Below, in pieces: positions 29,977-55,031 of a stretch of DNA of 56,278 nt; within the stretch, counting starts at the first letter, position 1; every line of letters begins with the position of its first letter. The position numbers and the translations under genes were made by a program. A model generated the notes under the pieces. The model searched no databases. It was given only the letters and a program-made list of their open reading frames with translations, and had not been told where the DNA came from. This DNA is from a virus, in the IMG/VR virus record IMGVR_UViG_3300008219_003867, positions 1-56,278 of that record. The stretch is one strand, 5' to 3'.

Positions 29977-32900
29977 TTATTCGTGAATGTTTACGTGAAG
30001 TATCGAATTTCCGGGTATTCCATGAACTAATTCCATATCATTCAAATGCGGCCCCATGTAGTGATGCCAGCATTTGTCTGAGCATTTGTGGAAGTTCAGC
30101 GGCCCCTTATCATTGCAACATATCTGATCGAAATTCAAATAGAAGTCCATGCTTGTAGGCTTGTCGCTATTTCCTTGTCTACAATTATTTTCTGGTGGAG
30201 GATATCCTACTATTATATCAAATGCCCCACCGTGTCTACTCCATACCGCTCGCCAATTTGGATCTGCGTATTTATCATAATCTTTATTTTCTTTTATAGA
30301 AACGTCTACCTGCGGCGAGTATATAACACCCTTATGGTTTCTTGGAGAAAGACCAATGCCAACATCGTGACCCATTGCGATTGCTTCTGGGGAAGATAAG
30401 TTCGATAGCTTATCCATCATTGTTACGACATTCATCTTTCTTTCGTCCAATGAAATGCTTTGTGGAGCGCCTTTATAAACAAGTTCTCCACCACCAATTT
30501 CAGTGCAATGTTCTGGCGTGTAATAATCTCCCGCGATTGTTGGATTTACACATTCAAAATTATAAATAGCCGTTCCGGTTCTGCTTACCCCCCAATTGCC
30601 TCCTAACTCATCGCATTCTTGCTTGCTGGTTTTTGATCCAATCATCCCCTGTACATGACACACTCCAGCTAATGAATATTCAGCGCACTCATCAGCATTG
30701 TTTATGCCTCCTATGGGATTTCCAACAAACACACCACCGATGCGATCACATCGCTGCTTTGTGGCTGCTTCTTCTGTAACATTACCATCTTCAATTCTAT
30801 AACAAGTCCCTGCATCAGACCAGTAAGTACCTAAGCATGTTTTATATTCTTGTATAAAATGACAATTATCACTTATCGCACAAAGCTCATAAGCCTGACT
30901 ACTTTCTTGATTGGTGGGTTCGCCGCCTTCAGCAAAGCTATCGGGAATTTCTTGATCTAATCTTGAAAGGTCTATACACCTACTTCCACTGCTATCTTCT
31001 TCCCATGTATTAGAAGTGATGTCTCTGCACTCTTCTTCGGTCATGTCCACTTCTTCGTCATTCTCATCAAAACATTTCCCTACCTTAAGCCAAGCAGCCC
31101 CTCTTGTTGCGTTACACGCGACCGCTCCTAAAGATGATAAAGGAACAGAACTACCTGTGAAGCCACCGTCGTTGGTTACTCTTTTGGGCGTGTTTGATAA
31201 ATCAAACTCCCAATCCGTAGCAATACCGGCTGCTGGTGTTGGCTTATAGGCGTCTAGGTTTGACCTTAATTGACTAGCGTCATGAATTGTTAATTCCATT
31301 TCTTGATGAATGGCAAATTCATTTGCGGCTGTAATTTTACCGTACCAAGCCCACCCGTTTTCTTCACAGTCTTTTTGGTTGTCATATTCAGCATATTGAC
31401 AGCCTCGTTTTCTAGCAACGTAATTTCCATCAACTGGGCCAAGAGGACATTTCATCTCTCTTGTTTCTTTTCCTTCACTGTCAACAACAATAGTTTCCAC
31501 ACACTCGAAACATTGCCCCTGTGGAAAATCTTCACTCGGCGGCTCACATGGGTTTTGTAAGTAGAAACCGTTTAATCTACAACCAACAGGACAGCCTTCA
31601 ATAAAGCCCTCCTGTTTAAACCGTATCTCCTTGGGCTTTAAGTTTAGTGGATCTTCATATTCACCTTTATCATCTATTGTATTGTTTGCTTTTCCAACAA
31701 CCCATGTTCCACCAAACATTTCTTCACAAACATGCTTATCCCCGTTTCCTATTACGTCCTCTCCACTTGGGTCATCAAATATTTGAATCCATTGACCTTT
31801 AGGCTTAAAGACCAAGGGCAGCGCATCTTCCGCGCCGATAGCCATCGCCCTTTGATCGCTAGAGGCATCACAATCTGCTTTATTATTTATAATACCTTTA
31901 GTTAGGTCTTGGTCTATATGAACCCATTTTGAATTTATTATTTGGGTGTCAATGCATTCACCTTTATTACACTCATTTATGTCATCACCTTGTGACCCAG
32001 AGCAATAACCCATCCTTGCCCCCTTACAGGTTGCTGGATAAGCCACGCTTCCACTAATTACAAGCTTCTCAGCATCAGCTAAGTCATGAGGGTATTTTGT
32101 TGTAACTTTTGTATATAAGAACTGAGGAACCCAAAAATGCTTTGCTTTTTCACAATCCTTCTTGGTTTCGTAATAAGGATTGATGCAAGTTCCATCCGAA
32201 TCTGAATATACATTATCAAACCTGTCAATTTGAACAGGCTCAAAAGGCCATATCTCTGGTATGGGTGTACTCATTCCTCCTGCCATAGCCTCTTCTGTAA
32301 ATCTAAACATCCTATTTAGATTATCCATTGTTGGCATAGGCCCAACTCTTCCGGGTTGATTAAGGGAAAGAGCAGGGTCTTTTCTTAAGCTCTCCGTGGG
32401 TATACCCCCCAATAAAGGATTGGGTGAATGTGGGCCTCCTCTAGGCCACGGGCTATAGGCGGTTGAGTGCGTTTGATGATCGACAGGCCAAGGTTTTAAA
32501 CCATAAGGCTGCGGTAGATCGTACCTTAGCTTCATGTTCATATCAGTAAGCAAGCTCGCATTTGGCAAGCCATATGATGATCTATCATAGATTCTTAAGT
32601 GTCTATTCTTCCTTGGGTTTTTGGTTATAAGCGGTGCGATATTCGCAACCCTTATTTCCATAAACTGACACGCAGCGCCACCACGACCCCTGTCTCCATA
32701 TTGGTCAACTATTGGGTTGTCTCCGCGTGGAATACCTTGGTGGTTTGTGTAAACAATGTCTGTAGAACCGCTAGCCGACGTTGCTTTTTCGGTGCAGGTT
32801 CTGGCCCCGGTTATAATTGTGCCACCGGCTGGTAAGTATGGATTTCTGGATTTGTTATTTCTTGAGAAACTACCAAAAGTATCAAATTCAGCATCTGCTA

Positions 32901-35900
32901 ATTCTGCTAGACCAATACCAACGGGGGTTCCACTTTCATAATCACATCTTATGCCACCGTATGTTGGGGCGTAGGCTGGAACAACCAGCGTTCCTTCACC
33001 CGTTATAGGATTAACGTCTTTTATATAGTGAACAGTGAATTGTTCTGCTGGCTTTGATGGAAGGGGATCAAAACCGGTTGTGTTACATCTATGTGCAATA
33101 TCTCCACCTTGAGAGCAAGCAATAGCTCCGTTCCAAAGTGGCCCACTTATAAACAGGGCTTGATCCCTCCCCTTGTAGGTACAGCATTCTGTGCCGTGAC
33201 ACGGCCCCTTTGGGCCGCAATATTGATGCGTCATACACCTTCCTGCGAAGGCAAAGACTCTTTCTGTTATGGTTGGTTCTCCCGGTGGAGACAGTTCTGT
33301 GTCTGGGCCGTGTACACTTTTAATTAACTGTCTTTTAGATATACAGGGCAAGCCGGGAAAACAAGGTGGAGATCCAGAAATGCCGCTATCAACTCTTCCA
33401 ACCCTTAACCCCTCAGACCCTATGAAATCTGTAAATGTGCAGTTTGTTATTTCTGACCATATTTGAATACCATTATCTCTATAGTTGGTGCTTCCCTGTG
33501 GCCCAAAACCACCATCAACAACGTCGCCACTATTATAAGCGGCTATTGATGGTATAGAGTTTCCACAGCCCATTACCACCCTAATAAAATGCCCATCATT
33601 GGTTGCAGTTGGCGGTTTTACATTTCTATGCTGAAACAAACGATTTTTATCACGTTTTCCGGTATGAGGGACGCCGGTTTCCCTAGCTTCTCCATCAATC
33701 AATATTCCCCACATCCCCATTTGAGGCATATCGCATCCATCACAGTCAGCATTGACGGCAACAATTTCTGTTGGAGAAATATAATCAACATCTGGAACCG
33801 TTGGCCCAGTTGCTCTACAATGTACAGGCCAGTGGAACCTATGTACCCCAAAGCCGTTGTCTGTTGCTTCGCATTGTTTTAAACCAACCTCATTCATTAA
33901 CGTCCATTCTGATCGCCACACAACCCCATCATATTCTAATGGCACGTCAAGCGTCCCAAGGCCGGGGCATGTTGAGTCGTATGGCTGAACAGAATTTCCT
34001 AAATCATAACAGGATTCATCAGCATCTGTCGTTATTCGTGTAGGCCCACAACCACCAGCCCCGCTTTTCCATTCTTCGGTGTTAGCATCACAGTCTGATT
34101 CTACTGTGCCGTCTTTTCTTCCTCTTCCGGCTCCTAATCCTTTTTCTACCCATGTGGAAGTAGCTGAAGCTTTACAGGCTTGTTCACCAAGGCCGTTCCT
34201 TACACCGAATTCATCTACACAATGAGCAAGGGTGTAACACCCGCCAGCATTGTTTACTCCCACATCTCCGTCTTCGTTCACGTCTCCATTGAAATCACAG
34301 CTTCCCAGCTTGCCTTCGTCGTATACATATTCACCTTCATATTCATACGGGACATTGTGTGGGAAACAAGCACAAGGTTCAAAATGCCAATCAACCCCAA
34401 CTTCTTGCCCATAGGGATCAAATAGCTTACTACAGGTTGCCTTTACGTTTCCGACATGTTCAACATCTCCTACTTTTACGTCTTTTGACCCACAAGCTCC
34501 AATGTGGAATCTCACATCTTGACACTTTGGATAAGGAAAATTGCGATTTAGAAGTCTATTATCATGCTCGTTTACGGTTCTTTCACACAGGGTAGTATCT
34601 TCACAGCAGTTATTTCCTGCATAATCCAATAACCCCATTTCTCTCGATTTTACATTTCCGGTTTCTGCATGAGTTTTTATCTTGTGTCTGGAACTATATA
34701 CGTCTGAGCATCTTCTACAATTTGTAGTTCCAGCAACGTTAAGGCGTGTTCTAATGAACATATCACAACTTTGTGGATTTGGTAGTGGCGTAAATGTACC
34801 CCCTTTATTGTCTACGCAATCATCTTGCCTATAGGCAACAAGCAATTCTCCGTCCCTATGACAGTGACCAAAAGTTATACCACCTTTCCATGTATAAACT
34901 GGGCCAAGACAGTCTTGCTCGGACACATTAACAGTCTCACCAGTTGACGTTAATACACATTTTCCGGGGGAGGTGTCAATAAACTCACTTTCACAAACAG
35001 CAACATCTCCACCCATCCAGCCCATATCACACCCATGATGTGCATCGCTACAACAATAGCCATCATGACTTGCTTTTCCCGTTACATCACTAATCTTAAC
35101 TGAGTCATCTGCCGTTGGTGCATCACAAGGATCCATTCTGCAACCAATATGATTTAATATTTCAGTTGGTTGATCTATAATTGTTGCAGTAAGGCTTCTA
35201 GGCATAAAATGATCACAACATACGGGACATATGCCCTTTTGTTCAATTTGTACATAGTAATCGTTTGCTCTTTCTTCCCATTTATATCCCGGCCCACCCC
35301 ATCCGAACCTGTACATTGAGTCTAGTTCTGCTTGGCTAAGGTGGCCTACATAACCAGCTTCTACACCAACGTCTCCATTTGCAGCGTGACCCCAATAGAT
35401 AAAATCACCAGTGAATGGACACACTTTCCAAACACCCACCGCTGGCTTTCCTTTGCTGCCTCCTTCAATTGCTCCACCAGTCATTAGCTCATTACTGGAT
35501 TTAAAGTCGTTTTGAATCCAGCAGCCTTTAAAAGCGTTTAAATCATCGCCATCTTTTAAGGCTTCAGTATCAACACATTCAGCATATTGTGTCTTGGCAT
35601 ATCCAGCTTTCCAAGTTCCACCCATACGAGTGCATTGGTCTTCGCTACTTGCACCAATATCATCGCCATTAAAGTCTAAACACTTGCCATTTCTTTTTTG
35701 GCACTGTTGTTCTACTTTATCAAAGTCCTTAGCATTATTTATAATTGATTTATGATTGTCTCTGTTGGCATCAATGTCATAGCACTGGTTCACATATTCT
35801 TGATTTCCGTCTGTGTAACCTTTATCGGGGTAAAAACGCCTGAAGGTTTTGGCAAGCAGGACGCACTCGTCTCTTGTAAACATAGACTTATCAATACCAA

Positions 35901-38900
35901 AATGATTGTCTATAATTGTGCAAATTCCAAAGGTGGAACATCTGTCTGCCGCTCCTTCTGCGCCTGACCAATTTCCATTTGTCCACGTCAGCGGCGCTCC
36001 ATCCTTATTGTATCCCGTGCATTCATGTTGTTTTAGTGTTTCAACTTTAAGATCGTTTGCATAGCAGGCAAACGCTGTGCAATCGAGTTGTGTTTTGTTG
36101 TTTTGCGAATCTATGTCGCACTCACCTTCGGTCAGTCCATAATTATTAACCCAGCGATAATTGGTAAGTTCTACGTCTTCTAGGCACATTGCCTTCGTGG
36201 TTAGATCAACTACAATATTGTCTTCGCTATTTACACAGTATTCTTTCTTTTCAAAGGGTTCAATGTAAGGGAGGCCAACATGTCTATCGTCATTAGTCTC
36301 TGCTGTTACAACAGACCACTTAGGCTCTGTAACAACTGCCTCATAGGGATAGCCAGCATTTTTTACGCAAACCATCCTACTTTCGTCTGGACATTCTGTA
36401 GTATCTAAATTTGTTTTGTTTTGTATTGTTCCATCAACTGGATGTTTATCGCATGTGAATAAATCAAAAGTATCAAGTGTTACATTTTTAGCTACAAAAG
36501 CCTGCATCGGAGGGGGGTCTTTTCCTAGTATGCGTTCCCCCTCACAAGCATAAAACTTGTCGGAATCGCAAAAGGTTGAAAAGGTGTTTCCTACTTTACC
36601 ATCCCATGTTGATCCACACCCCATCTGGCTTTCTGGATTTTCCCACAGGTAATTTACACACGTTCCGTTGCCAGCGACATCGAGGCAGCACGCAAATTTT
36701 TCTCCATCACATGTTTCTCCAGCAGAGAAGTCAAAAGAAGGATGTTTTACAAACCCCTCTGGGCAAGTACCATCCGAGTTTTTCGGCGCGCATTTATCTT
36801 TAGAGGCTTCGCATGAACCCCCATCAATGCATTCAGACCCGTCTGCTCTTTTATCTTTACATGATCCTAATGTACAGCCCTGCCTGTCTAGTCCCGGTAT
36901 TTCATTGCCATTTTTATCCATACATACTGAATCTTTAGGGCATACAGAATCTGGCCACATTGGTTGTTCACAATCGTCCTCACACTGGTTGTATATCTTC
37001 TCTTCCCACTGGGTTTCTTGCCACTCTCCTGTAGTCATAACATTGGCGGCAAAATTGCCAGCGACATTGGAAATATTAACAAGGTCGCCATCTTTTAGCA
37101 GGTGGTTTCTAGAGGTGATTCTAATTGGACTATCATTGCTAGCATACTGAATCCTTCTTTGTTGAGAAGTTCCCAAGCAATGGTCGTTAACATAGCTGAC
37201 CATCTCACCCTTGGGGAAAAGCCCAGTGTGATGCCAATAAGTCATGGAGTTGCCTACCTCTGACCCTCCAGTCCCCAACAACCCCGGCTTTGCCCCCCAT
37301 ATAACTTCTATCCCTGCCGCGTCTCCGACTGTATAACAGTCTTCTTCGGTATCAACCAAAGGCACTTCTTCGCCAAAGATGTCAAGTTCCGGTATATACG
37401 CAAAACAGGCAGGCTTTTTAAAGCCGCCTTCTATTTGGCTTAGATCGGTAAATCCTGTACTTAAAGGCCCATCAACTCTCACCCTAACTACTTCGTTTTC
37501 TCTTGCTGGATAAGTATTTCCTTGACCACCAACAGTCCCCACCTGCTTCCCTAAAACAATGTCTATAAGGTCTTCCGGTATATCTTCAACAATCGAACAC
37601 TCTTCATTCAATAGTCTATCAGGATGTATGTTGCAGCCCTCTGACCATGTGCCACCAGCACATGTGTTGCTCATTTCGCATTCGCATTCAACTTTATTAG
37701 TCGCTTCTCTCCATATGCATTCTTCCTCTCCTGACCAATTGCCCTGTCTCCATACATACAATTTAGATAAACAGGAAGCGATGTTAAAGTCTCTAATAAG
37801 TTTTTGACCGATCCATTTACCACCAGCCCTTGCGCAATCTTCTTCATTATCGTGTCCTCCTCTGTCGCAGTAGTATTCATGATATTCCTTTCCACCGGTG
37901 TCATAACATTGGAATTTTTCGCATTCTTCCCTTGAACTGTTTGCTCCCGCATTAATATCACATATGGGTGGCTTTATAACTTCTGATAAATTGGTACATA
38001 TTTGTTCTGAGCATTCTTCAGTCCATTCGCAACAAAATTTAGTCGCCGCCCCAGCGTCCGTGTCCGCTTCTAAACAATCACCATCGTAAAATGTGCCGTC
38101 TTCTTTTATGCAACTACTTGCGCTACCGCAGCCACCCTTAGATATTGGCTCGCACTCTCGACAACTTGGATCGTTTACTGTGGCATCGTATGGAACCCAC
38201 CCAACCCACATGGCTCCATTTCCGTAACCACAATCACCCCTTCTCAGGAAGCCAACATGACTATCAACATAGTCGAGTGCCGCCTGAGCTATTCTTTCAC
38301 AATGACCTCCCGGCTTAACGCTAAAAGTACCATCTCTACCAACATTAAGTTCATCCCACGCGGTAAAATCGTGATACATGAAATAATCTATGCCGTAATT
38401 CCAAAACCAATGACCACCACCATTTCTATGGCCCAATTTGTGATCTACGCACCCCTGCCAATATCTTTTGTCAGAAACGGCTTGCTGGAAGGGCTTGGCC
38501 CTATTTTGCTTTTCTTCGGAGGGCTTAAAGGGTTGTGGTTGTATATTGAACCCGTGAAGAACCTCTGCCCCCTTAGCGTTGGCAAGCCGTCTAAATTCTT
38601 TACCAGATGCATAATAAACATACTGATCGCAACCAAGGCCACCTTGACCACCATCTTCTATTCCATCCCAGTTTGCGTCTGGATTCATGCACCATTCAGG
38701 ATACTGGGTTGAAAAAGGTATTCCGGGGAAACCTCCTGAAATATTCCCAGCCCCAGCGACGGCATTGTCCATTGCTCCAACTTTTGCGGCAATATTGGTT
38801 GCGGGGTTTCCGTACTCATACGCTCCCATTCTCTCATCCCACATTGGTTCTGGCTCTTTCCAGCCAGATCTTAATTGGGTTTCACTTTTCAGTGTTAGAT

Positions 38901-41409: not shown

Positions 41410-43223
41410 TATAGTCCTGCTGTTTGTGGATAGTCATCATCAGGCCCGCAGTCTTCTGCCGTAGCAAATCCTTGGGCGAAGAATTTTTTAGAACAAGCGG
41501 CCATCTCACCTCTATCGCATCCTGCATGTGAAAGAATTTCCATTCCGTAAAACTCCGCTTGCAATATTATATGGACAGGTATTGCTTCTTTTACTGTTAC
41601 TGTAGTTCCAGAAGTTTGACCACAACTAGGATCAATCATTCGTTCATATTCATAAACTATTCTCTTACCAGTATCATAACTGAAAAACGCATCCCCTACC
41701 ATTAAGCCTTGACCTAGAGGATTTTCGATAAATATCTTTTCGTACATCATAGCCTTTGCATGCTGCGTCCAAGTTTTATCTTCACCAATTTTTCTGTTAA
41801 CAAACTCTTTTTCTCCAAAATAACTAGAACCCCATCCATGACACGGGTTTCCAGCCCTTCTTGATCCGGGCGCTCCACCTTGTACCTTTCTAAACTTATC
41901 AGTACATTCAGTAAGCGTGTTTGGCTTGCCAACCACTTCATCAATTGGCCTTAATATGATAGCATCATAAAAGGGTGCGCATCCATCTTTAAAATCTGAA
42001 CAAGCAGTTAGGTGTCCCAAAGTTCTACATCTACCGCACCAGTTGTGGTCTTCTGGGTCGTATATTTCAATATCTGGATAGTATATACTTGTTGGAAAAT
42101 ACGAAGTGTGTGTGCAATCATGTGTTGGGCATGGGTTTCTGTAAAGCCTTCCCGGTGCATTTACATTTCCACCAACACCAAAGTTGAATGAATTATTTCC
42201 ATCTAGACCAGCTTGTGGCAATATACACTTAGTAGCCTTAGATAAATATATACCGTTGTGTTTACCACCAACCCAAACCTTTCTTTGGTGATCCCATCTT
42301 AAATCAACAGGCCCAACCTTCCATTGGTCAGGTCTTCTCATGTGGACTGGTATAAAGTGCTTATGGTCTTCTTGCATACCAGACACGCTTTTTGCCTGCA
42401 TCGGGGGTGGAACATATCGCTGTCTTCCATAATTCGCAGCCCCCGGCTCATTATGCCTATACTCAGCATCGAATCTAAGGTTGGGAACCGGGTTTTCATA
42501 TATATCATAGCCCCAACCAGCCATTACCATTGGCCCCCTAAGTCCTATTGGCCTTGCGGTGTTTTTTTGTTTTGTTGGAGCATCAACCAGCGTTGCAACG
42601 TCTGTTGAAAACCCACCACCAACAGCCACCTGACTTGGATTTGTGAGTGTCTCGTTTTTATTAAGCCGCGCAATGAAGTGACCAGAAGCAAACGGATTTA
42701 AAGATATAGACGTAATAAAAGCTGGCCCCGGAGCGTTGACACCTAGATCTTCATGTTGTCCAACTTCCTTAAAAGCAACGCGGTCATCAACACCGCCTTC
42801 TTTAGCTGTGCTATAAGGTCTTTCAAAAGCTGGAAATCCGGTATCATCTAATGGTCTATTTAAGTCTGAGTCTTTACCGCCGTCGTTTCTTACTTTGAAA
42901 GCTGTGTCATAAGGCACAAACAAACCATCTAAAGACATGCCCGCAGATTTTTTCCAAGAGTCATCCCCTCCAAATTGAGACATATAGGTAACCGCTGGGC
43001 TTGTCATGGTTGTTGCGGTGGAGTCCAATATTTTCATTGCCCCCCCACCCTCAACCGGATGATTATCCCAATACATAACCTTATTTTGACCATCTCTAGC
43101 AACAAGATTAGCATTAACGCTATACATACTTGATAGCATCAGATGGCTATAATCAGCTAAGTCGGTCTTTTCTCTATCTTCTGCGCCGCCTTGACCAGCG
43201 TATGTTATTTGGTTTCCAGCCAT
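41409..43223 (-). CDS. Tail-associated structural protein (604 aa)
   Basis: 604 aa. Beta-rich with conserved-looking blocks (PGPAFITSISLNPFASGHFIA in part, GPMVMAGWGYDIYENPVP in part, KWKVGPVDLRWD-like composition). A Cys/His cluster at about residues 368-420 (CPTHDCTHT, WCGRCRTLGHLTAC, GC) may bind zinc or form disulfides. No enzyme motif was found. Genes before and after are joined by TAATG. Likely part of the baseplate or fibre assembly with the giant neighbours. Confidence 0.55.
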   Translation of the reverse strand: MAGNQITYAGQGGAEDREKTDLADYSHLMLSSMYSVNANLVARDGQNKVMYWDNHPVEGGGAMKILDSTATTMTSPAVTYMSQFGGDDSWKKSAGMSLDGLFVPYDTAFKVRNDGGKDSDLNRPLDDTGFPAFERPYSTAKEGGVDDRVAFKEVGQHEDLGVNAPGPAFITSISLNPFASGHFIARLNKNETLTNPSQVAVGGGFSTDVATLVDAPTKQKNTARPIGLRGPMVMAGWGYDIYENPVPNLRFDAEYRHNEPGAANYGRQRYVPPPMQAKSVSGMQEDHKHFIPVHMRRPDQWKVGPVDLRWDHQRKVWVGGKHNGIYLSKATKCILPQAGLDGNNSFNFGVGGNVNAPGRLYRNPCPTHDCTHTSYFPTSIYYPDIEIYDPEDHNWCGRCRTLGHLTACSDFKDGCAPFYDAIILRPIDEVVGKPNTLTECTDKFRKVQGGAPGSRRAGNPCHGWGSSYFGEKEFVNRKIGEDKTWTQHAKAMMYEKIFIENPLGQGLMVGDAFFSYDTGKRIVYEYERMIDPSCGQTSGTTVTVKEAIPVHIILQAEFYGMEILSHAGCDRGEMAACSKKFFAQGFATAEDCGPDDDYPQTAGL

Positions 43224-46200
43224 TATGATTTACCTGTTTGATATTGATCTATTCCACGTTTTGTTCTTTTAATTTGCTCTTCTGTTCTTGCAAGATTGGC
43301 AAGAAGATCTCTCTGGCTTTTTCTTATTCTGTCTTCATATGTTTTTGTTAGATCTCCAAATTTTCTGTTTGTAGTAAAGTTATAGGTTGTTGTTAAACCT
43401 CCAGTTCCTATCTGAACACTAACGTCTGTGATATACGGCCCTTTTACTATTTCACCAGCAGCGTTTGTGTATGTTAATTGCGTCCCAAAAGCATAAGCTG
43501 GTATTCCCGTTAATTGAATATTTCCGGTTTCTTGAGTTCTATTTTGAGCCTTGCCAATTGTAGATTTGACCCTTGCCATAGCAGCTTTTCCCATTTCCTT
43601 TTCCCCACCAAAAGCTGCTGGATGGAACGCTTCATCTATTTGGAAATCGGGTTTTCCAAAGTCCCAACCTGCGGCCCAAGCCCCCCACCTATAGTGTCTA
43701 CTTTGTTGAGGAACGGCTGCATGCCAAGGTTTATATACAGCCGCCTTAAAAGAACCCTTCTTCATATCAGGCGCAACACTACTATTAGCAATGATCCTAG
43801 CACCCCAAGCCACAATGTTTTGTTTTGCTATACTCAGGGGATCCCAGCCCATTAACCATGCCTGCAACAAGCTGTTTGCATTTTTAGCATTTAATAAAGG
43901 CACGCACATGTGGTTCTTCTCGCCACCCACAGAATCATGTAGCTTTTTAGATTCATCCGTTTGTGAATAAAGAGCGGCTGCTGGAAGTGTTACCAGCGCG
44001 TATGGTTTATATGCAGCGTAATCAGTTAATATTTCTTTAGGGAATGCTCCAGTTATTCCCTTTGTTACCACGGGTCTTTCGTTTAATACTCTTTGTGTAC
44101 TTTGGTTCGCGTTTGTTATTGCGTCTGCGACTGGATCTCCGGTATTTACATCTTTTGGTGGTTTTGGCCCAACCACTGCAATTGTTGCTAAATCTTCTAG
44201 TTCAGCAGCGGTTTCACCCCCCTTGGGGAGTTCCATAGGACTACCAGCTAAATATTTTTTATACTGAAGCTCATGGTGAACTTCCCAATCTGGCCTCTCT
44301 GTTAGCCAGTGTGTTTTTGGGTCTATTTGTGTAGGCACAAATACCTTGCCGCCCCAGTTATCGTGAGGGCCAGCATTAAATGTCGTCTGGTAAAAACTTT
44401 CTGCATCAAAAGCACTAAAACTCACGGGTACGGCATTTCCAGAGAATCTTTGCCATTCTTTTTCTGGGAATATAACAAAGGATTTTAAATTTCCGTCATC
44501 AGTCCAAAAGTTCATGTTTTGTGGATAGCCAGCGTTAACAGCTTTTGACTCTTGACTACCAAAGTTATATTCTATATCCCCTCCGGGCCATCCAGCAGTT
44601 GCAACTTCCCATCTATTAATTTCTTGGATTGGCTCAATCCATATATCTCCGTTGATTATTTCACATGTGTATTTGTCGGGGCTTACTCCATTTGTACATC
44701 TTCCAACGCCCATTTTGTGGAACCACTCGCTTTGTAGGCCGTGTGTACCCCAATCAAAACCAGCATCTTCGCAACCACCTTTACCCTTATAGCTTGGGTT
44801 TGTACATGTTACGGTTGATGGTGGATTAAAAGGAAGCGGCACTAAATACTTTCTTCCGTAGAATTGGGTAGCGACATGTGCAACCTTTTTATACGCAAGG
44901 TCTACCATCATGCTCGTTTTCTCATACACTGACATGACAGTATTCGTACTAGGATCTCCACATGGCTCACCAACAGTCGCCTTTGCTTTTCCGGGGGAGG
45001 GCTTGGTGCTAGGAACATGCACTCCCCTTCCAGCAAACCCAGTTAAAGCATTTGCCGCATCTACATGCGCCCCGCTCATTCCACCTTCTATGATAACATC
45101 GTCTTCCGTTGGACACCAATCTCCCCAATAGTTTCCGGGGACTGGATTTTGATAATACATGTGGCAGGGAAGGTACGGCTGAAGCTCTCTCATAAAATAC
45201 AGCCAAGATTCTTTACTAGCCGCAGCATGTCTTAATTCTGTTACTGTTGCATAATGGAAGTCTTGGAATTGCTCGCCGGGATCATTATGTTCTGGTTTGG
45301 GGCCACCATAATAATCAACTTGTCCTAAATCTATAGGAATGGTTGAAGTTCTACATTTTAGAGGCAAGCCTCTTCCGCTCTTAAGATCTACGGGTGCGTA
45401 GACCATCCTCCCTCTTGTTTCAAGATCCTTATCGGTAGCTGGACTACCCTTTTGGTAACATTCTCTTGGGTCGTTGGTTGGGCCACCATCACCATCTCCC
45501 GGCGGGCCTTGATCTTCTGTATCTTCTACACCCTCGTTTTCTTCAATCGAGAACATATGGCAGTCGCCTTTTAGTCTCTGTCTTGTTTTTACATATCCCG
45601 GTGCTGGAATATCTTCTGGCGCTAATTCTATGCCATAGTATGGGTCTTTAAGTGCGTAGCCAAGAGAGGCTCCAGCGGCGTCGGTAGCATTATCTGGAAA
45701 TACGTTTTCAGGAATATTTTTCCATTCGGCTTCGCCGGGGTATTTTTCTTCACAGTCTTTATATGTTACCGCATCGGTTCTACTACCGTCTGGGAACACC
45801 AAGCCTGTCGGTGTTGTAATTTTCGTTGTAGCTATACAGCCATGTTGCCAATCAAATCTAAAAGTAAGAGCTATGCATTCATCTGAATAAAGACCGCCAC
45901 CGCTTTCATAGTCATTTTCATCTCCTTTTACCCAATTTCCCCCGGATGGTTTCCACGCTTCTCCAGCGCCTGTACAATCAGCCTGTACTTTGCCGAAAGC
46001 TCCAGCACACTGCGCTGTGTGACAATCTGTCTCGGTAGGGTTATCTTCAGTATTAATATCACAATGATCACTCTCTGCTATGTCGCCATTTTTGTTAATT
46101 CTAAAAGAGTCTCTTATTACTTCGGGGGTAAGCATTTTTCCACCATCCACACAGTCTTGCGCGCTTTGCACCATATGGACGGTTCCGTTGGCTAGGTTTG

Positions 46201-49200
46201 ATGACCATTTATCGTGATCTTTTGTGGCGGGGTCACCTCTAACATAGGACGTGCTAGTGACTGTATCCTCGAAGTCTCTTGTATAGAATGCTACTAACCT
46301 ACCTCCCCCTTCTGCCACTGGTGGGTCTGCTGGATCACCGTTAGCATCCACTTCAACCTTAAAACATCCAAACTGACATCCCCATGCGCTATGAGCTATA
46401 TTATTTCCTGAGCCAGCTAGCGTACCGAGTTCATCGGTTATGTCTCCACCATCAGGATCACGACACGCATTCCACGCCACACAGTGGGGTCTAAATTTAT
46501 ATAAGCCCTTATCAGTCAGTCTTATTGTCGCACAGTCTGATTCTGCGCCACTTTTTTCGACGTTACATTCGCATATATTTGGCATGTTCTCCCAGTCTGT
46601 TTGTGCAGCCCCAGTGTCAGGATCTTCGCATATGCCAAGTGCTGGATTCCACCACTCTATTCCACTAAAAACACCTTCTACTGGATTAAAGTCTCTATAA
46701 GGGTCATCATCCCAAGCGAAGCCTTTAATTGGCTTACCTTCAACAGTATTGTCTACTATATCAAGGAGTGGATTGGTTGCTTCAATAGCCTGCGGAGTCT
46801 CAGACTGCCATGAGTAGTCTTCTCCCAATGCTTCACAAGCTTGTTTGTCTGCTGGTTGGGGTGTGACTACAACAGGCCCAGAGACTTTGTTTTCTGTACA
46901 TTCACCATGCAAGCTCTTGTTAGCTCCACCTTCCGTGTGTTCATATTCGATATAACCCCAGCATGGGAATATATCTAAATAGCCAGAATCGCGCGAATAT
47001 ATGGCCTCCCATTCTCCACCACCTGCTGAACATGAGTCTTCATCCCCCGCCTTTCCCCAAGTATTTCCACCATTAACACAATCTCCTTTGTTTACATCGC
47101 CTGTGTTTCCTCCAGAGTCGTTACTACAATATTCATCTTCTGGAGTATTACCAGAAAAAGCACAAGCCCCAGCATCCGCTTGGTGCAAAGAACCCACCCT
47201 ATTAAACTGAAATGGGTCTGCTTCGTCGTTTGTAGGGCCAGAATAATCTTGAGGCCAATACCAAGGCAGGTAATCATCATTACTAACAGAGGGGAGGTTT
47301 TGCTCAAAATCTGGAAAAAGCAAAGGATCGGTTTCTCCAACTTTTCCATAAGGATTCCAACCAAGATCCGTCCCGTCTAAAAAGGTGTCTTTTGGTGTGT
47401 CTTGGTTTGTAAGAGTAACCCCATCTATTTCTACATTAGGTAGGTATTCTGTTAATATAGAGTCTTTGCCCTCTGTTGGTGCTGGATTGCTCCCTGTTGT
47501 ATTAACCTCTTTCCATATGTTTGTTGCATCTTCAGCAAGACATGCTGGCTCATCTACCATGCCCAATACTTCATCGTCGGAAGTGTCAAAGCATTTGTAG
47601 CCTCTTGTTGATTTATCTAAATACTTGTTACTTGTCGCATTATAGAATAGCTCTTTTCTAAGCCTTCTATCGCCAATGGGTGTAACGCCTACAACCCTTG
47701 TTCTAGGCCCACCCAATAAAATCTTGCCCTCTATTGGATCAGTAAACTCATATCCAAGAGTTGAACTAACAAGCGTGGGATTATTTTCCACGTCTATAAA
47801 CGGGCCTTCTGGTGGTACTTTTTGAGATAGATCTACAGCATCGCTTAAAGCATCCTTGTCTATAGTTACGTTTCTGGGGACAATAACAACCTTGATAATA
47901 CCCGAATAATTTTTTATTAGTTCATAGTCTTCCGGGTTAACAAAGTTTTCGTCAACTAGCTTTTTTGTTATTGGCTCCAGCATTACATAAAAATCAGAGG
48001 CCGCAACTTCACAAACTTGTTGTATTATTGCAAGGAGAGACATCGAATCTCCGGGGACTCGATAATCGGATGGCACAAAACCCGATGTTCCATCTATGTC
48101 GCCACTGTGGTCTTTATGGGTGAGTTTAAGAAATTGTTCCAAATCTACTAAATACCTATGTGCAGAACGACTAGGGTCATCGGTATTGAAATCATCGAAT
48201 GGTTCTTTGTATATCTCTGCGAAGGGTGCTTTAACATCCAAGAACCTAGTATCTACAGAATAGGTCATTGGGCCACCAAAAGGCTCTTGCTTATCTGTGT
48301 ATGTTCTGACTGTACCCTTTAACATTTCTCTTAGGGCTGGAAGTATACCAAATGCATGCTTCCCTCCATTTTCTACCATCTCGCCGCCATGATTATCAAT
48401 GCAATCTTCTGTTTTTTCGTCTTCGTTGTTTCCTACGGTATCAACCACTGCGCCATTTTTAACACAGTTTGTGCTTGACCAATCTGTATTAAAGTTTCTA
48501 TCGGGAACATTCCAAAGCATTCCAGATTCTGTTCTATCGGATTTATTAAAGCCGTGATGTTCGTAATACCCATAGACATTTAATATGTTGTAATATCCAT
48601 TCCAACCCTCTTCGTATGCTCTTGTGCTATCTACCACTTTGTAAAAGTCGCTAGGTGAAACCCTAGACGCAAACCCATTTAGGATAACCGTAGTGTTTTC
48701 TAAAACGGTTCGGGGGTCTGCTACGCTTACAGAATAGGTTAGCCCAGACGTAGAAAACCTCTTTTCGTATTTGGTCATTATGCCCGGAAATGAGAACGCT
48801 TTGGGACAATTTCTCTCAAGGACACAATCCGCATCTATATCCTTGCCGTCATAATAATGGAAGAAAACAGGCTCCCCCGGATCTGGCATGTAGGCTATAT
48901 CTCCAAACGTTGAATATATATGCCCCATTCCAGTTTCAGGATTTCCCGGTTCAGCCCCGCCTGTTGAGTCAATGGAGTATTTCTCTAACAGCCCTACTGG
49001 AAAAGCGTCTGGACTCCAGCTATGATAACCTTCTGTTATAGCATCCCTAGTTCCAGAAGGCGTTAAAAATGACTTTGTATTAAATTCATCCTTGACTAGG
49101 TTTACAGTTAAACTTGATCCATTTCCGTTAAACCCTAGATTTGAACTCCAGTCCATGATGGACATGCCCAAAAAGGTTTGCTGAAAAATACCCAATTCTA

Positions 49201-49327
49201 TTGTCTTATAGTCATGTAGCGTTGAGTTATATTCATCCCACTTACCTCCAGCCGCTATACACTTGTCCTTAGTGTCGTTTGTCGCTGGATCTTTACTACA
49301 TCTAAATTCTTTTTTATGACTAGTCAT
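43223..49327 (-). CDS. Large tail hub/tip-like protein (2034 aa)
   Basis: 2034 aa. The first 600 residues look like a tail-tip or baseplate-hub core: GIFQQTFLGMSIMDWSS, PGEPVFFHYYDG, SFPGIMTKYEKRFS and GLTYSVSVADPRTVLEN, then VILNGF. Cys...Cys...W modules interrupt the chain, one at the extreme N-terminus (RCSKDPATNDTKDKCIAAGG), several from about 760 to 1170, including a long module at 45932-46072, and more later. The C-terminus (about 1940-2034) ends in a charged helix (RKSQRDLLANLARTEEQIKR). Probably binds the tail end and carries receptor- or assembly-related domains. Confidence 0.6.
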   Translation of the reverse strand: MTSHKKEFRCSKDPATNDTKDKCIAAGGKWDEYNSTLHDYKTIELGIFQQTFLGMSIMDWSSNLGFNGNGSSLTVNLVKDEFNTKSFLTPSGTRDAITEGYHSWSPDAFPVGLLEKYSIDSTGGAEPGNPETGMGHIYSTFGDIAYMPDPGEPVFFHYYDGKDIDADCVLERNCPKAFSFPGIMTKYEKRFSTSGLTYSVSVADPRTVLENTTVILNGFASRVSPSDFYKVVDSTRAYEEGWNGYYNILNVYGYYEHHGFNKSDRTESGMLWNVPDRNFNTDWSSTNCVKNGAVVDTVGNNEDEKTEDCIDNHGGEMVENGGKHAFGILPALREMLKGTVRTYTDKQEPFGGPMTYSVDTRFLDVKAPFAEIYKEPFDDFNTDDPSRSAHRYLVDLEQFLKLTHKDHSGDIDGTSGFVPSDYRVPGDSMSLLAIIQQVCEVAASDFYVMLEPITKKLVDENFVNPEDYELIKNYSGIIKVVIVPRNVTIDKDALSDAVDLSQKVPPEGPFIDVENNPTLVSSTLGYEFTDPIEGKILLGGPRTRVVGVTPIGDRRLRKELFYNATSNKYLDKSTRGYKCFDTSDDEVLGMVDEPACLAEDATNIWKEVNTTGSNPAPTEGKDSILTEYLPNVEIDGVTLTNQDTPKDTFLDGTDLGWNPYGKVGETDPLLFPDFEQNLPSVSNDDYLPWYWPQDYSGPTNDEADPFQFNRVGSLHQADAGACAFSGNTPEDEYCSNDSGGNTGDVNKGDCVNGGNTWGKAGDEDSCSAGGGEWEAIYSRDSGYLDIFPCWGYIEYEHTEGGANKSLHGECTENKVSGPVVVTPQPADKQACEALGEDYSWQSETPQAIEATNPLLDIVDNTVEGKPIKGFAWDDDPYRDFNPVEGVFSGIEWWNPALGICEDPDTGAAQTDWENMPNICECNVEKSGAESDCATIRLTDKGLYKFRPHCVAWNACRDPDGGDITDELGTLAGSGNNIAHSAWGCQFGCFKVEVDANGDPADPPVAEGGGRLVAFYTRDFEDTVTSTSYVRGDPATKDHDKWSSNLANGTVHMVQSAQDCVDGGKMLTPEVIRDSFRINKNGDIAESDHCDINTEDNPTETDCHTAQCAGAFGKVQADCTGAGEAWKPSGGNWVKGDENDYESGGGLYSDECIALTFRFDWQHGCIATTKITTPTGLVFPDGSRTDAVTYKDCEEKYPGEAEWKNIPENVFPDNATDAAGASLGYALKDPYYGIELAPEDIPAPGYVKTRQRLKGDCHMFSIEENEGVEDTEDQGPPGDGDGGPTNDPRECYQKGSPATDKDLETRGRMVYAPVDLKSGRGLPLKCRTSTIPIDLGQVDYYGGPKPEHNDPGEQFQDFHYATVTELRHAAASKESWLYFMRELQPYLPCHMYYQNPVPGNYWGDWCPTEDDVIIEGGMSGAHVDAANALTGFAGRGVHVPSTKPSPGKAKATVGEPCGDPSTNTVMSVYEKTSMMVDLAYKKVAHVATQFYGRKYLVPLPFNPPSTVTCTNPSYKGKGGCEDAGFDWGTHGLQSEWFHKMGVGRCTNGVSPDKYTCEIINGDIWIEPIQEINRWEVATAGWPGGDIEYNFGSQESKAVNAGYPQNMNFWTDDGNLKSFVIFPEKEWQRFSGNAVPVSFSAFDAESFYQTTFNAGPHDNWGGKVFVPTQIDPKTHWLTERPDWEVHHELQYKKYLAGSPMELPKGGETAAELEDLATIAVVGPKPPKDVNTGDPVADAITNANQSTQRVLNERPVVTKGITGAFPKEILTDYAAYKPYALVTLPAAALYSQTDESKKLHDSVGGEKNHMCVPLLNAKNANSLLQAWLMGWDPLSIAKQNIVAWGARIIANSSVAPDMKKGSFKAAVYKPWHAAVPQQSRHYRWGAWAAGWDFGKPDFQIDEAFHPAAFGGEKEMGKAAMARVKSTIGKAQNRTQETGNIQLTGIPAYAFGTQLTYTNAAGEIVKGPYITDVSVQIGTGGLTTTYNFTTNRKFGDLTKTYEDRIRKSQRDLLANLARTEEQIKRTKRGIDQYQTGKS
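45932..46072 (-). repeat. Long Cys module, copy E (in the 2034-aa protein)
   Basis: Encodes SDHCDINTEDNPTETDC, QCAGAFGK and GAGEAWKPSGGNW. It is the same design and length as copies A and B of the 3810-aa gene but lies in a different gene, showing the module is shared between proteins. Here N-P-T replaces N-T-T. Confidence 0.75.
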
Positions 49328-51684
49328 TAGAACTCCTGCCCCGGATATGGTTCGCCCTGTCCATCGTCTTGCGCGCTAGTCCAAGTTTCACCCGCTGTTA
49401 CACAAGCCGCCTTGTCTGCAATAGTCGGGTCACTACATGTTCCATAAGTTCCAGCAGGATCAGCGAATACATAATCGCCAGATGGGAATGCATAAGGATC
49501 GTTTATTTCATAAATCCAACTTAGACTAAAGCTCCAGTCTCCTGTTTTTGGGTTCCAGCTTTCCTGCGGTGGGTTTACAAATCTTTTATGCACTCTTTTT
49601 GGGGAGTTTGGCCCAGTTAAGAGGTAGGTTTTTGGATCAAATGAATCAATTAGTTTCTTAATTGCAGTTGCTTGTATCATTTTTGTTCCCGCCCCCGTGT
49701 GCGTGGGGTTAGCATTTGGATCCCAAGTTCCCCCTACGGCTGGGTCTTCACAATCTACTTGTGTTGTTATTGCAACAGAAGTGACAGGGTGAAACTCAAC
49801 ACTACATGCTCCTAAAGGTGAACCAGCCAAAGCACTCCCCGGCTTTGCCAATACAAAATCGGGTGAATAATCAGCAAGAGTTAATCTTAATCTTGTATTT
49901 ACATAGTTAGGATTTGGTACAAACTTCATGAAAGCCCCAGTGGTGTCTTTTGTTGCCTCACACTTTAACTTACTTCCGACATCTCTTATTTGATTGTAGG
50001 CATCTACACATATCTCTGCCCTATTAACATCAAAGTTAGCGCTGATAGAGAAATCTCTCTGCCATTGTGTTTGTGTATTAATAGATTGTAATACGGGGCC
50101 AACCCTTCTACCTAGAACAGTGTGTGTCGCTATCACCTGACCGGGATATGTATCGTTTACACTCCAGTCTTCTGTTCTTACATAAGGTATGTATTTACCA
50201 GTAGCTGAATCTTTAGTCGTAAAACTCACATTGTATGTAATGGTTCCATTTCCGGGCTGCTCAGTAACGCTCTTTGATTGTGGAACTGGGTTGACTTTGA
50301 AAGTGTCGTATTCTGGAAGATCATTTAACATTTCAGCAACGGTAACGAATAAAAACGGCATTATTTTTTCATAATGTTCAACTGCATTTTGCCACTTACT
50401 ATTTTTAACACCACCGCCGCCTTCGTAGTCAAATACTCTATCTGTACCAGAGGCGTCTCTATGTATAAGCCTATCTTCATTACCGGCGGCACCCACGGCT
50501 ACAGTATCGGCATTATCACCCAAGCCTTCTATAGTACCGTTTACACTAATGGTTACACTACCATCTCCCTCTGACTCTTCGCTAATACTAAAGTCCATAG
50601 TCTCCATAGCTTTAGCGGCAGACGGGGCTAAATGCCAAGTTTCTGTTACATTAAAACTGCCTTGATTTATATCTACGTTTGATATTCTTTTGTAATTAAA
50701 AGCAACGTATTGCTTTAGGGGGTCTGGTTCAGTGTCTGGAACGGGAAAATTCATTGAGAACAGATGAACATCATCAGCGTCCATGTCTCCCGGTGCCGCT
50801 ACGCCAGCATCTGGGCGGGCGGCAGTAAATTCGTCATCATCTTTTCCAAATAGATAATGGTTACCATATTCCATTTTGTCATATAGATATCCCCTAGCTT
50901 GTTGCCAAGCCCTACCATTTGGAGCATAGACTGTACTCCAATTATCGTCGGGGTCTACTCCTTCAGCTTTTCCGCTTCTAAGAAATTTATTTCTTCCGGT
51001 GGCTGACATGGTTCTTGTTATTGTAAATAGCTTTTTGCTGTTTACTAATTCGCCCTTAAAGTCGGCGGCTTTTGGGTTTCCAGCATCATCTACTGCTTCT
51101 CCACCATCTATTTGATGTCTCGTATAGAGTTGTTTATCAAGCTCTTCTACACCCCACGTTTCAGTAGCAGATTTAATAAGCCAGTTTTCAAACAACTCAA
51201 AGTCGTCAGCATCAATTGGAACATCGTTAGCACCAAACAAGACGTTTGTTGAAAGATTAACTGTATATGGCATTTTGTATGGATCTCCGGGGTCATGCCC
51301 CGGCAAATCAACACTCTCTACAGTTACATAGCAAGATATACCTTGAGGGTTCCCAAGCATGGGGGAATCAATTGTCATAAGCTGACCGTCGTTGTCTTTA
51401 CTGAAAAGGTTCATTAAAGCCTTTGTCTTATTCAATAAAGATTGATGCCATTCGTTATCGGTAAAAGCATAAAATAGATCAAAACCAGCCCCCTGAATGA
51501 ATGCACCGTTGGCCTTGGGGGAGCCTCTATCGGCAACTAATGTACCACTAAGCTGTATACTGTACGAAACCCCAAGGATTTCACCGGTGCCGTCCTTATC
51601 GTAATTTTTTGAGATACTTACAAACGGAGCCGGAATCAAATGATTTCTTTGATGTGTTACTCTTCTACTAAAATATACTGGCAT
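49327..51684 (-). CDS. Tail structural protein (785 aa)
   Basis: 785 aa. The start (PVYFSRRVTHQRNHLIPAPF) and the long beta-rich body (SYSIQLSGTLVADRGS, MPYTVNLSTNVLFG, TYNVSFTTKDSATG) resemble tail-tube-proximal or distal-tail proteins. Two Cys modules are inserted late: CSVEFHPVTS...DCEDPAVGGTW (about 660-690) and CSDPTIADKAACVTAGETW near the end. Overlaps by one base on both sides. The module insertions lie where loops would be expected. Confidence 0.55.
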   Translation of the reverse strand: MPVYFSRRVTHQRNHLIPAPFVSISKNYDKDGTGEILGVSYSIQLSGTLVADRGSPKANGAFIQGAGFDLFYAFTDNEWHQSLLNKTKALMNLFSKDNDGQLMTIDSPMLGNPQGISCYVTVESVDLPGHDPGDPYKMPYTVNLSTNVLFGANDVPIDADDFELFENWLIKSATETWGVEELDKQLYTRHQIDGGEAVDDAGNPKAADFKGELVNSKKLFTITRTMSATGRNKFLRSGKAEGVDPDDNWSTVYAPNGRAWQQARGYLYDKMEYGNHYLFGKDDDEFTAARPDAGVAAPGDMDADDVHLFSMNFPVPDTEPDPLKQYVAFNYKRISNVDINQGSFNVTETWHLAPSAAKAMETMDFSISEESEGDGSVTISVNGTIEGLGDNADTVAVGAAGNEDRLIHRDASGTDRVFDYEGGGGVKNSKWQNAVEHYEKIMPFLFVTVAEMLNDLPEYDTFKVNPVPQSKSVTEQPGNGTITYNVSFTTKDSATGKYIPYVRTEDWSVNDTYPGQVIATHTVLGRRVGPVLQSINTQTQWQRDFSISANFDVNRAEICVDAYNQIRDVGSKLKCEATKDTTGAFMKFVPNPNYVNTRLRLTLADYSPDFVLAKPGSALAGSPLGACSVEFHPVTSVAITTQVDCEDPAVGGTWDPNANPTHTGAGTKMIQATAIKKLIDSFDPKTYLLTGPNSPKRVHKRFVNPPQESWNPKTGDWSFSLSWIYEINDPYAFPSGDYVFADPAGTYGTCSDPTIADKAACVTAGETWTSAQDDGQGEPYPGQEF

Positions 51685-54600: not shown

Positions 54601-55031
54601 CAGCCCTCAACGCAGAAGGTTGCGTAAAGATCCCACTCTGCACCACTCCACATCCAAAGGCAGTCTTGTTCGTCACACTCACTTACTGTGCCGTCGTCTG
54701 ATGTGCCTTTACCCGTGCTTACGGTAACTACTGGAGAGCCAGCGTACATTCCGCTACCTTCTAGCGGCATCCAAGCTTTGTCAAAACTGTCTATAAAGGT
54801 TCTGTTGTATTGGCCGCGCCAGTACCCATATTCTCGATTAGTACCGCTTGGTATAACGTCTCTAGACCCAGCGAACTCTACAGCACCCATCATAACAAGG
54901 CCGATAGAGTTAGTTTCTCCCGGCTTGTGTAGAGTTCCTACTGTGTGAGCTAAAGAACCTAAAGTGGCCGTGCCTTCCCTGACCCAGAAAGCTGTCGCCT
55001 TTAAGCTTGCATATCCTTGGTGTGTTGCCAT
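51684..55031 (-). CDS. Large tail protein with LamG-like domain and beta mini-repeats (1115 aa)
   Basis: 1115 aa. Residues about 90-170 hold cysteines including FCVEGCQCAD. Residues about 185-385 form a LamG/concanavalin-like domain (GYSVYAKVLPSGDVTGTVIIG, KIYVNGKQEG, GWIDEAGISS). The C-terminal half has two near-identical copies of a Thr-rich domain of about 115 aa and many short beta units such as GIMNMFV, SLFARG, MPLFLK and IPLYLQV. These features suit a fibre or receptor-binding protein. It follows the tape-measure-like gene directly. Confidence 0.65.
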   Translation of the reverse strand: MATHQGYASLKATAFWVREGTATLGSLAHTVGTLHKPGETNSIGLVMMGAVEFAGSRDVIPSGTNREYGYWRGQYNRTFIDSFDKAWMPLEGSGMYAGSPVVTVSTGKGTSDDGTVSECDEQDCLWMWSGAEWDLYATFCVEGCQCADAPTVPGGFMGDTTSKPCVGGSSSSGTSGTGDNVGFAKWEKAGALIGPVGREAIQQRSLFLSDRSFVNAGSGVDLSTSTGYSVYAKVLPSGDVTGTVIIGQHKENPAQFVLGCDFDGSYYIRSDHEVSGVNTPVYAKTTRRFEDYPYPTHIVGVYASGDSKLKIYVNGKQEGESAPFIRQKKGAANTNVTLGKREFAIAERGFTGWIDEAGISSKSLEGSKIKAFHDGTFNITDLIFNAKVTPTGDSGLSGTSFGDTGIDALNNNYVEFVVDSGVVGRLNPDGVRGGAFDKTLWGQADYAISSVLTFDLTELPTRFHQLTDLSVDLWVEHSTNHPSGADLSARIVHKDKQLTRKNLYWHPSGVSVPSGSKRLLSIAHPLEYESYYRDGNPSFKNDFDDHQLEISVKYPKSDLPYDAEFKIYSSKLSFSGFDTLAKYNTMTGLTEAGVIKGHSVTDIDGNVVAQVTGDRSLTMYSFGGSPTLSSGIMNMFVDVGTADQALNLTLNHDPQTSMGDTASGFLFANAAIAMKYEQQATGTVTIYASQYLDGTIPHYVRITTTDGTVITATVSEDTTTTTDTDSPTWEKEGSDSWATADNLATCLNANSKLTATSNGAGVVTIKQVAGPGGDTVIVLEDPSGKGMSKTDFTGGGIPLSSMNLYTTAGAFKSTMPLFLKQKRFTGLSSPSLRLETKGAELSFPRSQKILPLHMLGSPGFGVPSGDMILVMPNTKAPLQVANRLLYIRGRQPVGDIPLYLQVAEPKIKTTSLFARGPLAYTPSGIMNMFVKQKEFYGVSYIKALPGIIRNENTSLFTKGHGFLGNVGTQATGTVTVYASQYLSGTIPHYITITATDGTVITATVSEDTTTTTDTNSPTWEAEGSDSWATADNLATCLNANSKLIATSNGEGVVTIKQVVTGAHGNTAIILEDPSGTGMSKTDFAGGVDPSSLNLVMPNILGSGTKTFNLSTRGYE
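51778..52127 (-). repeat. Duplicated Thr-rich domain, C-terminal copy
   Basis: About 350 bases matching 52651-52997 with a net 3-base indel. Encodes ATGTVTVYASQYLSGTIP through GMSKTDFAGG. Both copies keep EDTTTTTDT and SWATADNLATCLNANSKL. Confidence 0.85.
52651..52997 (-). repeat. Duplicated Thr-rich domain, internal copy
   Basis: Counterpart of 51778-52127, 870-873 bases away in the same frame. Encodes ATGTVTIYASQYLDGTIP through GMSKTDFTGG. Differences are mainly third-base or conservative, so the duplication is recent or kept uniform by recombination. Confidence 0.85.

Follow-up and report, generated by a model that had tools for sequence, protein, structure and literature searches.

We report that three tail-region proteins encoded in the window, i.e. 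the entire 56,278-nucleotide stretch of viral DNA analysed here, contain a small Cys/Trp module which recurs above chance, is predicted to adopt a compact fold matching a segment of T4 gp8, is present or absent at homologous sites of related proteins, has been copied within its own boundaries, and occurs in a broad range of proteins. We consider it likely that this module is a mobile micro-domain, probably closed by a disulfide, which would stiffen loops exposed on virion and secreted proteins and whose copies would share common descent.

Results

The giant protein and its neighbours are arranged in the window as follows.

29977..41409, (-) strand: giant tail-region protein of 3810 aa with 197 Cys (5.2%); ∼15 modules can be called, embedded in a core that is Cys-rich and conserved
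41409..43223, (-) strand: 604-aa protein flanked by the giant and the 2034-aa protein, well conserved, modules looked for and none found; used to find the related contigs G001-G006
43223..49327, (-) strand: 2034-aa tail-region protein, 4 callable modules
49327..51684, (-) strand: 785-aa tail-region protein, 2 modules

Profile-based combined calling yields 21 modules in the three module-bearing proteins: the giant has 15 of these, the 2034-aa protein 4 and the 785-aa protein 2. Of the strict motif end T..xC-x(2-5)-GG-x-W, the giant has four instances, against a shuffle mean of 0.06 and with none of 500 shuffles attaining that count; the 2034-aa protein has two (shuffle mean 0.03) and the 785-aa protein one (shuffle mean 0.00; attained by 2 of 500 shuffles). 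A module profile built from 16 seeds and run with a threshold of at least 4 bits on the proteins of seven phages returned 62 matches, compared with 0 for reversed and 0.5 for shuffled sequences, and a separate module count gave 84 versus 0 in the control sequence. The module noticed in the initial annotation is thus real and exceeds chance in all three proteins, including the two shorter ones to which it had been extended. Its abundance was overstated, however: 'dozens' of units of the form C-D-x-x-G...T-x2-E-C...GG-x-W had been claimed, and only about seven meet the strict end of the motif. Nor do modules 'fill' the 3810-aa protein, in which 115 of the 197 Cys are conserved across all five full-length giants compared and only 30 fall into insert columns of their alignment.

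The individual sites are listed below, in the order of the 785-aa protein, the 2034-aa protein and the giant.

49381..49437, (-) strand: compact module CSDPTIADKAACVTAGETW, 785-aa protein 750-768; found in the window and G001 alone; strand-helix-strand in the model
49723..49815, (-) strand: module 624-654 of the 785-aa protein; G003, G004 and G005 have a clean gap here
49238..49300, (-) strand: compact module CSKDPATNDTKDKCIAAGGKW, 2034-aa protein 10-30; also present in G001 and G003; no call in G004 or G005
47057..47128, (-) strand: module 734-757 of the 2034-aa protein
45932..46063, (-) strand: long four-Cys module 1089-1132 of the 2034-aa protein; window and G001 only, cleanly absent from G003-G006
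44750..44806, (-) strand: compact module CTNPSYKGKGGCEDAGFDW, 2034-aa protein 1508-1526; the sole site occupied in every homologue
40192..40251, (-) strand: module 387-406 of the giant
39883..40017, (-) strand: long module 465-509 of the giant, 45 aa; copy related to 1764-1814
39712..39792, (-) strand: module 540-566 of the giant
39409..39543, (-) strand: long module 623-667 of the giant, 45 aa
37813..37962, (-) strand: composite long and short module 1150-1199 of the giant, within the 78-aa insert 1148-1225, which has 6 Cys and no counterpart in any other giant
36151..36237, (-) strand: module 1725-1753 of the giant
35968..36120, (-) strand: long module 1764-1814 of the giant, 51 aa
35611..35682, (-) strand: module 1910-1933 of the giant, CLDFNGDDIGASSEDQCTRMGGTW
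34888..34959, (-) strand: module 2151-2174 of the giant, CLGPVYTW subtype; site empty in every other giant
32131..32187, (-) strand: compact module 3075-3093 of the giant, CINPYYETKKDCEKAKHFW
31345..31401, (-) strand: compact module 3337-3355 of the giant, CQYAEYDNQKDCEENGWAW
31003..31074, (-) strand: module 3446-3469 of the giant; gap in G001
30727..30804, (-) strand: module 3536-3561 of the giant
30592..30660, (-) strand: module 3584-3606 of the giant; gap in G002, G003, G005 and G006

A long version does occur in two genes, as initially noted, although not at equal length (45 or 51 aa in the giant versus 44 aa in the 2034-aa protein).

The relatives G001-G006 are six related IMG/VR contigs, to which a broader search based on the 604-aa alignment added none. 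When module sites were compared across the window phage and these six, just 1 of 35 proved to be occupied in every homologue and many were clean gaps in other homologues. The initially proposed check thereby comes out positive: homologous proteins are without units at matching sites. The suggested movement of the units gains support from copying that stops at module boundaries, inside a single gene as well as between separate genes: the giant's modules at 465 and 1764 agree at 95 of 135 nt (70%) and both flanks at 34%, while in G003 a module of the 2034-aa homologue matches one of the giant at 49 of 72 nt (68%), with flanks at 35% and 29%. The giant of G006 contains two 90-aa Cys inserts sharing 71% identity over 274 nt (E 1e-31).

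The compact form has the consensus C-[ST]-[DN]-P-x-[YF]-x5-C-x3-G-x2-W. As had been proposed, the structure of a single unit was predicted, and the AlphaFold model of the 750-768 region of the 785-aa protein shows, with confidence (mean pLDDT 83.7), a micro-fold made up of a strand (4-6), a helix (14-19) and a second strand (24-26). Its best PDB match is the crystal structure of the T4 baseplate wedge protein gp8 (1n7z; 0.8 Å over 26 residues, TM 0.76, probability 0.99), a match for which the Foldseek E-value, owing to the very small size of the unit, is only 0.33, and which has to be read knowing that AlphaFold was trained on PDB entries including gp8. Separate sequence searches likewise return gp8 (E 0.0004 and 0.0011), and the compact window modules align with it without gaps, with Cys-x10-Cys and the Trp 7 residues past the second Cys. 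The Cys spacing of the longer window modules is wider than the compact C-x10-C, and a profile of the longer form found no match in the PDB. Weak Foldseek similarity of the module model to loops of voltage-gated channels was also seen; sequence searches give no support to channel turret loops as homologues, and this likeness is probably convergent. Modelled over its full length, the 785-aa protein (pLDDT 53) shows weak, at most suggestive fold likeness to tail-tube and baseplate proteins (E 0.095 for the best Foldseek match), on which we do not rely.

In T4, the module occupies residues 142-162 of gp8 (C-x10-C-x3-GG-x-W, strand-helix-strand), and each of the nine gp8 homologues examined has one copy; a gp8 homologue is also present in the Klebsiella phage structure 9f4a. 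Residues 331-350 of T4 gp10, in its domain 3 (Pfam PF22670), carry C331-x10-C342-x3-GG-x-W, and this module is found in 8 of 9 Straboviridae examined, being absent in Vibrio phage VH7D.

Since the short modules lie beyond the sensitivity of tblastn, degenerate DNA patterns were used in its place. An exact DNA pattern has 8 viral and 13 genome matches, all of them modules in open frames, part of their likeness being demanded by the pattern itself; reversed, the pattern gives 1 match in the viral set, versus 8 forward. Against the INPHARED phage set, neither whole-protein searches with the 785-aa and 604-aa proteins nor a query made of the concatenated modules gave a match. The initial view of mobile units of tail proteins is supported and at the same time too narrow: apart from T4 gp8 and gp10, the compact form is present in unrelated viral neck proteins, a subtilase (whose catalytic domain match spans the module) and pseudopilins, its bacterial carriers being scattered secreted proteins. 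T4-type neck proteins carry it; T4 gp13 and gp14 do not. In surveys of 297 and 279 genomes from two phyla, the compact pattern was found in the seed genomes only, and the compact form is rare in cells. The module hence combines the two features of a mobile virion domain: homologous sites may have or lack it, and it turns up in proteins unrelated to one another.

Pfam, PHROGs and NCBIfam contain no family matching the module above curated cut-off, in agreement with the initial impression that no named family fits; the match obtained is to the unnamed gp8 segment, which looks like the same unit. PF22670 and phrog_977 give only weak matches on the module. Those of PF22670 coincide with the module or adjoin it in L030, L034 and the 2034-aa protein of the window, and are below the PF22670 cut-off. 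EGF-like or other named Cys-rich domains receive no Pfam support. No description of the motif, or of a mobile Cys unit in phage tails, was found in the open-access literature.

Discussion

Rickettsia palindromic elements and MITEs are in-frame insertions in many genes, and the modules might likewise constitute a mobile element at the DNA level, the peptide being a by-product. In-frame insertion across many unrelated genes and DNA identity ending at the module edges are what such an element would produce. However, at 19 module edges neither inverted repeats (mean 5.3, versus 5.5 in the control) nor direct repeats (5.2 versus 5.0) are in excess, no near-identical DNA copies exist (self-comparison gives only short matches of 70-86%), and the conserved features are Cys, Gly and Trp at the protein level. 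Given the absence of edge repeats and of near-identical copies, we reject this explanation as very improbable. Independent convergence, with a short C-x10-C-x6-W loop being easily invented and the phage, T4 and bacterial copies unrelated, appears rather unlikely: the motif is indeed very short (19 residues, few fixed positions), sporadic in cellular genomes and weakly reminiscent of the channel loops, but related spacing and the S-D/N-P-x-Y and E-x2-G positions recur beyond Cys and Trp, copies within one phage lineage are related, and the DNA-pattern matches, whose similarity is partly imposed, all read as modules in open frames.

It is likewise improbable that the Cys belong to larger Cys-rich domains or cross-link subunits, the module being their recognisable fragment. 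While the 115 Cys conserved among the giants would fit, as would the tails of phage Milano, locked by inter-subunit disulfides (PMC10811340), a lone module is predicted to be compact, modules reside in otherwise Cys-poor proteins (viral L064 and L027 with 3 and 4 Cys, cellular L042 with 3 Cys), and they appear and vanish as units. Finally, fast turnover in probably exposed tail proteins, with position and number varying between relatives, could indicate binding units, e.g. receptor- or glycan-binding loops under diversifying selection, and not braces; we regard this as quite unlikely, as modules are also found in neck proteins and are conserved in the T4 baseplate wedge, neither of which binds receptors.

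For the mobile micro-domain that we favour, a module of ∼19-30 residues would comprise a short strand with the first Cys, a short helix with the second, and a last strand starting at the near-invariant Trp. The two Cys would most likely form one internal disulfide on which the Trp may pack, and the unit thus closed would sit in, and brace, an exposed loop of an unrelated fold. In the window lineage, modules of the giant and of the proteins next to it would turn over through in-frame copying by recombination and through loss; the long four-Cys form may represent an extended version. The most likely job of the module would be to stiffen and protect loops exposed on virion proteins, and on secreted proteins of cells, once these are released into an oxidising environment; we infer this bracing of loops, as well as a shared ancestry of the viral and cellular copies.

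Mobile Ig-like domains are optional in unrelated phage virion proteins, as is the module, although their fold is unrelated and they span ∼90 aa. T4 gp8 differs from the window proteins in having a single fixed copy, and literature treating its segment as a separate mobile unit was not found; PF22670, in turn, describes a larger domain of 122 positions and is not a module model. Both the gp8 site and the sole universal site of the window lineage look like fixed, not mobile, parts. The Cys-rich tail and baseplate of phage Milano are stabilised by disulfides (PMC10811340), resembling those that the window modules would form; the bonds described in the available text of that report join subunits, and no repeated module appears there.

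It is tempting, albeit tentative, to speculate that an ancestral disulfide micro-domain of ∼20 residues spread horizontally among phages, bacteria and archaea as a general loop clip, with T4 gp8 and gp10 possibly retaining fixed copies and the window lineage actively multiplying it. A single ancestral micro-domain, if true, would rank among the smallest mobile protein domains. The module provides a name-worthy unit for sequence left unlabelled by three curated family libraries, connects giant tail proteins from phages that are uncultured with the T4 baseplate, which is the best studied, and brings a solved structure to a module being copied between genes. This opens to testing both the spread of very small domains and the reasons for which optional cysteine loops are found in phage virions.

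Carrier proteins and their modules

The module is a two-cysteine unit of about 19-30 residues that ends in GG-x-W or alike (compact form C-[ST]-[DN]-P-x-[YF]-x5-C-x3-G-x2-W), and long four-cysteine variants also occur. The window, 56,278 nt long, is a single virus record of IMG/VR. Replication genes (UvsX-like recombinase, DnaB helicase, primase, DNA polymerase) occupy the left half of the window on the plus strand and a run of large genes the right half on the minus strand, where the three carrier ORFs were confirmed as initially annotated (modules by combined calling):

29977-41409, minus strand, giant protein of 3810 aa, 15 modules
43223-49327, minus strand, 2034-aa protein, 4 modules
49327-51684, minus strand, 785-aa protein, 2 modules

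The 604-aa protein encoded at 41409-43223, inside the span first ascribed to the modules, has none. None of the carriers has a significant match in Pfam or PHROGs. In the related contig G005 the counterpart run comes after a tape-measure-like protein of 2455 aa that has no Cys, and a gene recognised as tail fibre lies still further upstream; the label ‘tail proteins’ is therefore fair by gene position. Elsewhere in the window, a DnaE-like DNA polymerase lies in two ORFs (7430-11813; phrog_405 profile positions 42-615 and 614-1075), between which sits a separate exonuclease-subunit ORF (9557-10240, phrog_192); three glycosyltransferase-like genes (phrog_2170) follow one another at 12709-16458; and the 1115-aa protein at 51684-55031 contains two similar segments (residues about 675-790 and 975-1090), the first with a sub-threshold DUF7489 match.

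In each of the three carriers the strict motif core is more frequent than in shuffled sequences of equal composition, and a seed profile at ≥4 bits yields 62 matches in the proteins of the seven phages versus 0 reversed and 0.5 shuffled. Modules are thus present in each carrier, as the initial annotation proposed, but few fit its literal motif: in most, the first half varies and the end is degenerate. Since 115 of the giant's 197 Cys recur in every one of the five full-length giants compared, with just 30 in insert columns, the modules do not, as had been claimed, fill this protein: it is a conserved Cys-rich protein additionally bearing modules. Its conserved core (29977-41409; the 115 common Cys) is itself an undescribed Cys-rich protein.

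Occupancy in relatives

Searches with the 785-aa and 604-aa proteins recovered six related contigs (G001-G006), and a profile search found no relatives beyond these. In alignments of homologues the modules appear as clean insertions, and only one of the 35 sites bearing a callable module somewhere holds a module in every homologue that covers the site:

2034-aa protein, 1508-1526: sole universally occupied site
785-aa protein, 750-768: module called in the window and G001 only
785-aa protein, 624-654: module in an insert existing in the window and G001 only
2034-aa protein, 1089-1132: long module, likewise window and G001 only
Giant, 1148-1225: 78-aa insert with 6 Cys, absent from every other giant
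Giant, 2151-2174: module; no other giant has one at that site

Relationship to T4 gp8 and gp10

A profile of 21 modules, none of them from T4, matched residues 142-162 of T4 gp8 in the PDB (E 0.0004) as well as the gp8 homologue in 9f4a (E 0.018), and a 61-row profile also recovers the gp8 match. The gp8 module is present in all nine T4-like phages examined; T4 gp10 contains C331-x10-C342-x3-GG-x-W, found in eight of the nine and lacking in Vibrio phage VH7D. AlphaFold, which was trained on PDB structures, predicts for one window module (49360-49452; 61-row alignment, mean pLDDT 83.7) a strand (4-6), a helix (14-19) and a strand (24-26). Foldseek ranks T4 gp8 first among 350,542 chains for this model (0.8 Å over 26 columns, TM 0.76, probability 0.99; the weak E-value of 0.33 reflects the small size of the unit) and a Klebsiella phage homologue of gp8 second. 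Predicted fold and sequence searches nevertheless agree on gp8, and the sequence searches also on the residues within it. Weak Foldseek matches of the model to Cav3 and Nav channel chains (probability 0.07-0.33) have no sequence support, and this likeness is probably convergent.

Distribution in viruses and cells

The exact compact-form DNA pattern matched 8 viral stretches and 13 genome contigs, all of which read as modules in open frames; the reversed pattern matched one viral stretch, which is not a module. A looser pattern matched 22 viral stretches, three with internal stops and evidently due to chance. The carriers are unrelated. They include T4-type neck proteins of the viral stretch L030 (PF11649, E 1.8e-38; head-tail adaptor, E 1e-31), the module being absent from T4 gp13 and gp14; a subtilase whose catalytic-domain match extends across the module; and proteins with pseudopilin N-termini. 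By record titles, the cellular matches span many bacterial lineages and one Woesearchaeota archaeon, although individual assignments may be wrong since all thirteen are metagenome-assembled genomes. Two surveys show that, within a phylum, few genomes have the compact form. Compact modules are arrayed in tandem at L060:2918-8314 (51 Cys), L033:595-4206 (31 Cys) and L046:6586-7971 (26 Cys), the last in a protein with a pseudopilin-like N-terminus.

Copying of modules

The long modules of the giant at residues 465-509 and 1764-1814 are identical at 95 of 135 nt (70%), versus 34% in both 90-nt flanks; their amino-acid identity is 56%, higher than the 44% between the 1764 copies of the window and G001, and G001 has no long module matching the 465 copy at its site. 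Copying between genes is seen in the relative G003, where a module in the 2034-aa homologue is 68% identical in nucleotides to one in the giant, versus 35% and 29% in the flanks. The giant of G006 (L025) has two Cys-rich inserts of about 90 aa (residues 907-996 and 2753-2843; 71% identical over 274 nt) that are absent from other giants. The duplicated unit and the module thus coincide. The G006 insert is of a different type, and a third look-alike lies near residues 24-110. Neither inverted nor direct repeats are in excess at the edges of 19 window modules, and no near-identical DNA copies of modules were found; the likely route is therefore ordinary recombination and duplication rather than a transposon.

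Proposed role

Neither the two Cys nor the Trp vary in the 61-row alignment, and the natural reading is a single internal disulfide against which the Trp would pack. Such a disulfide-closed micro-domain would tolerate insertion into loops, and virion and secreted proteins finish in oxidising surroundings, which suits the carriers. Stiffening of exposed loops is the likeliest function; a ligand-binding unit or an inter-subunit lock is possible. Neither a curated family naming the module (Pfam, PHROGs, NCBIfam) nor a description in open-access publications was found. Its fold is not new, since T4 gp8 contains a copy whose structure is solved; what appears to be new is the recognition of the module as a recurring, mobile unit.
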